Below, in pieces: positions 11,866 to 43,644 of a DNA stretch of 57,327 nucleotides (positions are counted from its first letter, which is position 1; the number at the start of each line of letters is the position of its first letter). A model generated the notes under the pieces. It had not been told where the DNA came from, did no database searches, and saw only the letters and a list, made by a program, of their open reading frames with translations. The stretch covers positions 241-57,567 of the forward strand of contig WHTT01000041.1 in assembly GCA_009377605.1 (NCBI GenBank). Direction: 5' to 3'. Position numbers and translations under genes: made by a program. The stretch is from Luteitalea sp. Its GTDB lineage: Bacteria > Acidobacteriota > Vicinamibacteria > Vicinamibacterales > Vicinamibacteraceae.

Positions 11866-11895
11866 TGGTATGGGAGTGTAAGGAAAAGGCGCCTG

Positions 11896-11947
11896 AAAAA
11901 GGAACCGGGTACCTTTTCGCCGGCGAAAAGGTACCCGGTTCCTTTTT
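11896..11947. repeat. Perfect 52-bp palindrome, family C, copy 1
   Basis: Two 26-base arms beginning AAAAAGGAACCGGGTACC and ending GGTACCCGGTTCCTTTTT are exact reverse complements with no spacer; the centre is CGCCGGCG. It lies between the divergent ligD and ku starts, 30 bases upstream of ligD. A diverged copy sits at 43579-43644. It has the shape of a bidirectional terminator or a protein-binding palindrome, but it is more likely a mobile repeat. Confidence 0.92.
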
Positions 11948-12007
11948 CCGGTAAACCTTGAGCTAACATTGGCCGAGAGGAAGCGAGGGCCACTGGAGGG
12001 CCTCCGA

Positions 12008-21759: not shown

Positions 21760-21856
21760 GGCCGCCTCGCGAGGCGGCCCCTACCGTCGTCCGTGGCCTC
21801 GGCGAGGCGACCTATCGTCGTCCGTGGTAGGGCGCGTTCGCCGAACGCGCCGTGCT
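21760..21856. repeat. Cluster of family B palindromes
   Basis: Three GC-rich palindromes in a row: GGCCGCCTCGCGAGGCGGCC, CCTCGGCGAGG and GGCGCGTTCGCCGAACGCGCC, separated by the shared word CGTCGTCCGTGG. The last one is translated as the C-terminus of the minus-strand gene at 21812. The third unit recurs at 29670-29691. Confidence 0.8.
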
Positions 21857-23281
21857 CGCGAGCCCCTTGCGTGTCGAACGCTGGTGGATCCAGATGCGGT
21901 CGTAGAGGGGCTCGGCGCTGGACGTGGGTTGCGTGAAGACGACCGTGCGCGTGTGAACGATGGGGAGGCCGATCTGATCGGCAACCTCGATCAACGTCTC
22001 ACGTGTCTCGTTGTGCACGAAGTGGCCGCCCGGCGCGACTATTCCCGCCACATTCGCCAGTCCCAACAGCAATTCCACTTCGTCGAAGTACGTCAGGAGG
22101 TTGGTGGCGATGACGAGCTCATATGGTGGCCCCTCCAGACGGTCCGTGATGATATTGCCGCGCGCCGCATGGACGCGGGCACGGGCGTCCGGCGAGAGCC
22201 GGATGGATCGATGGAGATGCGCAGGCAGCCGCTTCAGTGGTGGCGTGGACGCGCGCACTGGCGAGCCTATGGCGCGACCCCACCGACCGAAGTAGGTGCG
22301 GTATTCAGGCGTCAGCGGCGCGCTCGACTGATCGGGAACGGCCGATAGCAGCTCGAGTGCGGGCGCCTGCTGGGTGGTCCGTAGCCGCTCGATGTGCGAC
22401 ACGACGCGCGGGTTGATGTCGACGCAGTCGATTGTGACCTCAGACACAGTGGCGAGATCGAGCGAGAGCAGGTCGTCGAGCACTCCGTAAGGTTGATAGC
22501 TCTGGGGCGGAATCTCATCGACCAGTCCAGTGCGGGATGCGAGTGTCAGACCCGGTCCCACGACCAGGACCCGTCGAAGGCGTGCGGATGGATTGAGCGA
22601 CTGGATCACGCCAAGCGCCTGACGGACGGCGTAACCTGCCTCGACTCCCGTGTCGGTGCTGTATCCCCGTTGCTGGTAGAGCGAGGCGCCGGCATCGGTC
22701 GCGACGTCTCTCTTCTCGCGCGCGGCGGCAAACTCCTTGTCGTACAGGAACCGCATCACGCGCTCGTACTCTGCGGCCAGCACGGGAGCAAGACCTCGTA
22801 CGCTGACGCGTGGGTCGCCGGCGACCAGATCGCGGAAATATTCAAGGCGCTCGTCAGGAGAAACGGGGACAGCCCTCGTTTTCACTTCCTGACGATGAGA
22901 AAACGAGGGCAGTCCCCGTTTCTCCCGCAGCACGTCCGCGAGGGCGTCGAGGCGCGCTTGTGCGTCCGCCGGCACGGCGCGCTGCTCATGGTGCATCTTC
23001 GCGCTCAGCGCAGGCTCGATCGCGGGCAGTGAGGTGAAGCTCCGGGCCTGGAGCGCGTAGTAAACGAGCGCTTCCCAATCTCCGTCACGCAGACGGTTAA
23101 CCGTTTCTTTCTCGATGCGCTCGAGAGTCGATGAAAAGTCCGAGGTCTCGATCCCCTGGGCGGCCAGGTGTCGTTGTACTGCCGTCGGCAGATCGCTCCA
23201 AACGGCACGCCGGGTCGTGCCGTGAACCGCAGGGGCGGTCAGCAGTACCGACGCCAGAACCGCGACTGTGTGCGGACGCAT
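21812..23281 (-). CDS. Exported SAM-dependent methyltransferase-like protein interrupted by an in-frame palindrome
   Basis: The 489-residue product has a signal-peptide-like N-terminus (TVAVLASVLLTAPAVHG). Its class I methyltransferase core has VLVVGPGLTLASRTG (motif I), VTIDCVDINPRVV (motif II), and YELVIATNLLTYFDEVELLL followed by GGHFVHNE, a CheR-like arrangement. Residues about 119-143 (REKRGLPSFSHRQEV, then KTRAVPVSPD) are encoded by an inverted repeat at 22857-22925 and look inserted. The last residues (ARSANAPYHGRR) are encoded by another repeat at 21827-21850. An exported methyltransferase is odd because SAM is cytoplasmic, so it may have lost catalysis or the leader may be a membrane anchor. 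It is convergent with the amidohydrolase. Confidence 0.7.
   Translation of the reverse strand: MRPHTVAVLASVLLTAPAVHGTTRRAVWSDLPTAVQRHLAAQGIETSDFSSTLERIEKETVNRLRDGDWEALVYYALQARSFTSLPAIEPALSAKMHHEQRAVPADAQARLDALADVLREKRGLPSFSHRQEVKTRAVPVSPDERLEYFRDLVAGDPRVSVRGLAPVLAAEYERVMRFLYDKEFAAAREKRDVATDAGASLYQQRGYSTDTGVEAGYAVRQALGVIQSLNPSARLRRVLVVGPGLTLASRTGLVDEIPPQSYQPYGVLDDLLSLDLATVSEVTIDCVDINPRVVSHIERLRTTQQAPALELLSAVPDQSSAPLTPEYRTYFGRWGRAIGSPVRASTPPLKRLPAHLHRSIRLSPDARARVHAARGNIITDRLEGPPYELVIATNLLTYFDEVELLLGLANVAGIVAPGGHFVHNETRETLIEVADQIGLPIVHTRTVVFTQPTSSAEPLYDRIWIHQRSTRKGLASTARSANAPYHGRR
22857..22925. repeat. Palindromic element inside a coding region, family C-like
   Basis: Arms GGAGAAACGGGGACAGCCCT and its near-complement AGGGCAGTCCCCGTTTCTCC enclose a further CGTTTTC/GAAAACG pair and a short loop. 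It spans about 69 bases, equal to 23 codons, and keeps the host frame open. Confidence 0.85.
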
Positions 23282-32724: not shown

Positions 32725-32780
32725 TGTAGCGCGCGGCCTTCAGGCCCCTCGCCCGCGCGGCCTGAAGGCCGCGCGCTACA
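32725..32780. repeat. Interspersed hairpin repeat, family A, copy 2
   Basis: TGTAGCGCGCGGCCTTCAGG pairs with CCTGAAGGCCGCGCGCTACA around CCCCTCGCCCGCGCGG. It overlaps the end of the beta-lactamase-like gene, and its TAG is that gene's stop codon. Confidence 0.85.
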
Positions 32781-43578: not shown

Positions 43579-43644
43579 AAAAACAGAAACCGGGTACCTT
43601 TTCGCCCTCGTCGCCCATCGAAAAGGAACCCGGTTCCTTTTTTT
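43579..43644. repeat. Diverged palindrome, family C, copy 2
   Basis: AAACCGGGTACCTTTTCG and CGAAAAGGAACCCGGTTCC with flanking A- and T-tracts pair with a few mismatches around a 14-base loop. It lies in the divergent region between GT2 paralogue 1 and the beta-helix gene. Confidence 0.8.

Follow-up and report, generated by a model that had tools for sequence, protein, structure and literature searches.

Palindromic elements of Rickettsia (RPEs) lie in frame in unrelated conserved genes, where they are tolerated (PMC2229807, PMC10969869). In-frame REP sequences have already been described outside Rickettsia, so that in-frame palindromes are a known kind of sequence: REP dimers inside open reading frames code for 20-30 residues, and intragenic GTAG and CGTC REPs of this sort are present in Opitutus terrae, in Rickettsia conorii (RPE-4 and RPE-6), in Thauera and in others (PMC3733652). 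A further type is represented by the TIR repeats of TIRYT transposases, which flank the transposase gene with the consensus GGGGWSAS (Di Nocera et al. 2013, PMC3733652); TIRYT has been equated with TnpA-Y1 subclass 2.1, whose median length is 238 aa (PMC6006769). The TIRYT repeat families have been described as being of moderate abundance, and the same paper reports intragenic copies for GTAG and CGTC repeats (PMC3733652). REPINs, the REP doublets of RAYTs, are inverted doublets of imperfect palindromes with single-strand hairpins and an extragenic preference (PMC3116915).

The window analysed here, a stretch of 57,327 nucleotides from Luteitalea sp., contains an inverted repeat at 22857-22925 with 32-nt arms (22857-22888 and 22894-22925) that are 91% complementary and separated by a gap of 5 nt. 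Folding of the sense-strand RNA gave -64 kcal/mol versus -29 ± 3.3 kcal/mol in dinucleotide shuffles (z = -10.6). As had been proposed in the original prediction, the palindrome lies in frame inside a gene, and the 489-aa frame stays open across it. The whole repeat is a REPIN-like doublet without an assigned strand; in the minus-strand gene it codes for approximately residues 119-142, which lie within REKRGLPSFSHRQEVKTRAVPVSPD. Its left REP arm, AAACGGGGACAGCCCTCGTTT (22861..22881, plus strand), holds the motif GGGGACAG, in agreement with GGGGWSAS, the consensus of TIRYT repeats. The right, inverted arm (22901..22921, minus strand) reads AAACGAGGGCAGTCCCCGTTT on the plus strand, and the unstranded spacer (22882..22900) resembles those of other 61-bp copies at C1:65909, C45:22709 and C155:4777.

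Within the window, the repeat is the sole member of its own palindrome family. The suggestion that its arm words resemble the free-standing palindromes of the window was not upheld, and a single family was ruled out since the sequences differ, those at 11892-11951 and 32725-32780 belonging to two other families. The first of these, AAAAGGAACCGGGTACCTTTT, occurs at 11892-11951 and 43621-43641, often as tight doublets, and the copy at 11892 is not spanned by any gene; 103 matches were counted in the window's genome and 29 in a second species of the genus (G001), and a search of G029 returned none. The palindrome at 32725-32780, also seen at L048:1397-1414 and 2018-2035, is GTAG-type (GTAGCGC...GGCC); palindromes of this type are found on either side of the single intact RAYT in the genome (contig C22).

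Searching the window's genome (G000; 6.79 Mb, 382 contigs) with the arm at up to three mismatches revealed 107 matches (51 + 56), the backward control giving none, and the symmetric pattern AAANGGGGNCNGNCCCCNTTT retrieved 105 arms, again with a control of zero. About 100 palindrome arms of the GGGGACAG type are present, chiefly as inverted, REPIN-like doublets of 55-62 bp; more than 40 places are similar to all or part of the element at 22857-22925, and many copies, both intergenic and genic, were found, as anticipated. From 57 sites read in this genome, the unit was deduced to be a self-complementary 21-mer, AAACGGGGACAGCCC[C/T]CGTTT, usually accompanied by an inverted copy across a short spacer. 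The usual doublet measures 55 bp; the window copy, at 61 bp, belongs to a longer form whose spacer recurs in a few others. Doublets of 55-63 bp were present at 79 of 133 sites; target site duplication, sought there also as a test for a MITE of a DDE transposon, was lacking in 75 of the 79. The flank consensus showed no conserved tag, the tetranucleotides sought at the foot being GTAG/GTGG and CGTC, and the motif GGGGACAGTCCCC was not found printed in the literature searched. G001 yielded 222 forward and 217 reverse pattern matches with controls of zero, mainly of the sister form AAAAGGGGACAGGCCCCTTTT in highly regular 60-62 bp doublets. Related forms were detected in G029 and G047, which belong to another family of the same order; the palindrome type was absent from the 56 other relatives searched.

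In view of this architecture, the palindrome very probably represents one copy of a REP/REPIN-type mobile element that is non-autonomous. It shares with REPINs the inverted doublet of imperfect palindromes, the single-strand hairpins, the extragenic preference and, in relatives, the linkage to a RAYT, but differs in having no GTAG guide tetranucleotide and, in G000, no matching RAYT. With the TIR repeats of TIRYT (PMC3733652, PMC6006769) it has in common the GGGGWSAS motif (here GGGGACAG and GGGGTCAG), the self-complementary dimers, a long Y1 transposase (~240 aa) in relatives and the occurrence in Acidobacteria; unlike them, it is represented by about 100 to more than 200 arms per genome, including in-frame genic copies.

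RAYTs flanked by palindromes of the GGGGACAG type were found in G001 (L151), G029 (L159) and G047 (L158), and not in G000. These Y1/REP-associated tyrosine transposases are 42-49% identical in pairs, and the best NCBIfam model for each is the REP transposase model NF047646, at a score below its cut-off. The L151 frame comprises 242 aa with an NHWH motif and is a candidate for TIRYT subclass 2.1 (~238 aa with a C-terminal extension); the repeat beside it carries GGGGTCAG. This transposase also seems to draw its C-terminal residues (EKGARPLFPVGTN) from the downstream palindrome (L151:2124-2144). In another genome (G002), a Y1 transposase (L155:492-1238) adjoins a regular array of GGACGGCTCTCTGAGCCGTCC palindromes, mostly spaced every 56 bases. 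A PF01797 search of G000 returned one intact RAYT, that of C22, and one broken fragment; when the sequence of the G001 transposase was used to search G000 for a close relative, the C22 RAYT alone rose above noise. Both candidates for a cognate transposase were ruled out, as C22 sits between palindromes of the other, GTAG type and the fragment has none around it. Since relatives possess the gene and the G000 assembly does not, the copies in G000 probably either are relics or depended on a gene since lost.

The genic copies were determined in a census of 126 sites from the two species (G000 and G001), with both flanks and the frames read; the sample consisted of the fetched sites and covered about half of the G001 copies. 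Approximately 10 of the 126 sites lie inside genes, where about 110 would be expected at a coding density of 0.87, the sensitivity of detection being imperfect (the FtsX site narrowly missed the threshold and had to be included manually). All genic copies are open and in frame, and none disrupts its gene; ten of ten in frame corresponds to p = 2e-5 if one third were in frame by chance. In G000, the host genes are the window gene and those for HisH, PrmA, an MFS transporter, an FtsX-type permease and a membrane protein; in G001, they are a PKS acyltransferase region, the linker of an exosortase-EpsI fusion, a PHP-domain protein and the MFS orthologue. HisH, PrmA, MFS and FtsX were named by Pfam/NCBIfam, and the others by eye from the sequence. 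The MFS copy lies, judged by position, between TM6 and TM7. Three candidates for frame-shifting genic copies (L092, L178 and L239) were rejected, all being gene ends; at L178:1218-2030, the C-terminal tail of a histidine kinase, KRGQAPFSSA, is supplied by the palindrome. The unit is read in all three frames (KRGLSPF, EKGDSPLF and KTGTVPVF types), and hence no single peptide is encoded. The palindrome is probably purged from genes unless it comes to lie in frame within a tolerant loop or linker.

The parallel to Rickettsia RPEs that had been drawn originally holds for the phenomenon, insertion in frame into conserved genes, and not for the element, whose nearest kin are the REP/TIR sequences of REP-associated tyrosine transposases. 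The Rickettsia elements are of ~150 bp with a conserved encoded peptide, in contrast to 55-62 bp read in three frames here, and the link to a Y1 transposase in relatives sets the present element apart. The intragenic GTAG/CGTC REPs are likewise dimers in open reading frames coding for 20-30 residues, but palindrome sequence, tag and phylum differ.

Comparison of the two species revealed that the window gene and PrmA, which are filled in G000, have empty sites in G001, and that PKS, filled in G001, has an empty site in G000. The HisH unit is present in both species, in register and with few changes (EKGDSPLF/EQGDSPLF), and was, judging from this register, most likely inherited from their common ancestor. 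The MFS and FtsX loops are filled in both species with variants that differ. The exosortase-EpsI linker carries a GGGGAC doublet in G001 (L186, C2:49679) and, in G000 (L286, C26), another repeat-like coding stretch ending in RPKGLRY; in the PHP protein, the two species differ in the unit held, GGGGCC versus GGAACC. These last cases may point to hotspots or exchange, on a comparison limited to two species. A tentative reading, which we hold to be rather doubtful, is that several unrelated palindrome families in this lineage repeatedly land in, or are exchanged at, certain protein loops and linkers; if true, palindromes would be a standing supply of in-frame loop variation.

The finding that every genic copy is in frame could also mean that the palindrome is exploited, as a dedicated protein-coding element selected for translation and for diversification of protein loops. 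In 131 of 133 copies none of the six frames of the arm is closed, the HisH copy has been kept in register, and different palindrome families strike the same loops in the exosortase linker and the PHP protein, all of which would agree with such a role. However, the number of open frames hardly exceeds that of shuffles (5.38 versus 4.97 for doublets and 5.98 versus 5.90 for arms), and on this ground a coding adaptation of the element was rejected; moreover, the use of three frames leaves no single encoded peptide, and copies are depleted in genes about tenfold. We therefore regard exploitation as unlikely. Accordingly, of the original prediction of a mobile palindrome that tolerates or exploits coding insertion, toleration is retained on the basis of the loop position, the in-frame genic copies and the depletion from genes, and exploitation is not supported in view of that same depletion and the near-shuffled openness.

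An immobile, functional element acting as transcribed RNA or DNA structure, such as a terminator, an mRNA-stability hairpin or a protein binding site, would account for a very stable hairpin in mostly intergenic copies, but is very improbable given that the sites in the window gene, PrmA and PKS are each empty in the sister species, and given the expansion of different variants in each species and the transposase linkage in relatives.

Twelve related genomes contain homologues of the host gene itself (21812..23281, minus strand; 489 aa). The window protein carries 24 residues from the end of motif ADVL to motif DERL, versus about 5-6 in the aligned homologues, all of which, as had been predicted, lack the insert; the same-genus orthologue represents the empty site, over which the window gene has a net gain of 54 bases. 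By this alignment evidence, the palindrome is to be seen as an insertion into a conserved gene. For an AlphaFold2 model built from 16 sequences (mean pLDDT 84.7), comparison with the PDB gave matches to class I SAM-dependent methyltransferases, in accordance with the gene having been called methyltransferase-like. In this model, the insert (~121-142) is predicted to form a disordered loop that joins the helices at 104-119 and 143-153; pLDDT is below 50 at residues 123-139 and the rest is confident, the low values being expected in part because the insert is uncovered by every other alignment row. The notion that the frame is open by chance or belongs to a gene in decay, in which an in-frame insertion would be meaningless, draws on the failure of Pfam and NCBIfam searches to match any model to the host protein, but is largely refuted, and scarcely credible, in the face of homologues across the order with conserved motifs before and after the insert, 68% identity to the same-genus orthologue (G001), coding-like usage on either side of the insert in the codon model and the confident fold.

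Returning to the mobile REP/REPIN-type element, two inverted, self-complementary 21-nt units form an element whose movement most likely occurs in trans, in the form of single-stranded hairpin DNA, the mover most likely being one of those REP-associated tyrosine (HuH/Y1) transposases that have GGGGWSAS repeats on their flanks. Copies landing in genes would usually be purged; the window copy probably survived because the frame was kept, no stop fell in frame and the landing was in a predicted surface loop between helices. The insert would then be translated and presumably be nearly neutral.

What is new here is the element type, GGGGWSAS, and the lineage in which protein-coding palindromes occur. 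Beyond GTAG/CGTC REPs and Rickettsia RPEs, these palindromes thereby come to include, in Acidobacteriota (Luteitalea relatives), a type for which relatives show linkage to TIRYT-like transposases. Matched filled and empty sites in two species of one genus constitute a natural experiment on loop tolerance as well as on the scattering of hairpins by Y1 transposases, and HisH and PrmA with palindrome-derived residues are directly testable cases.
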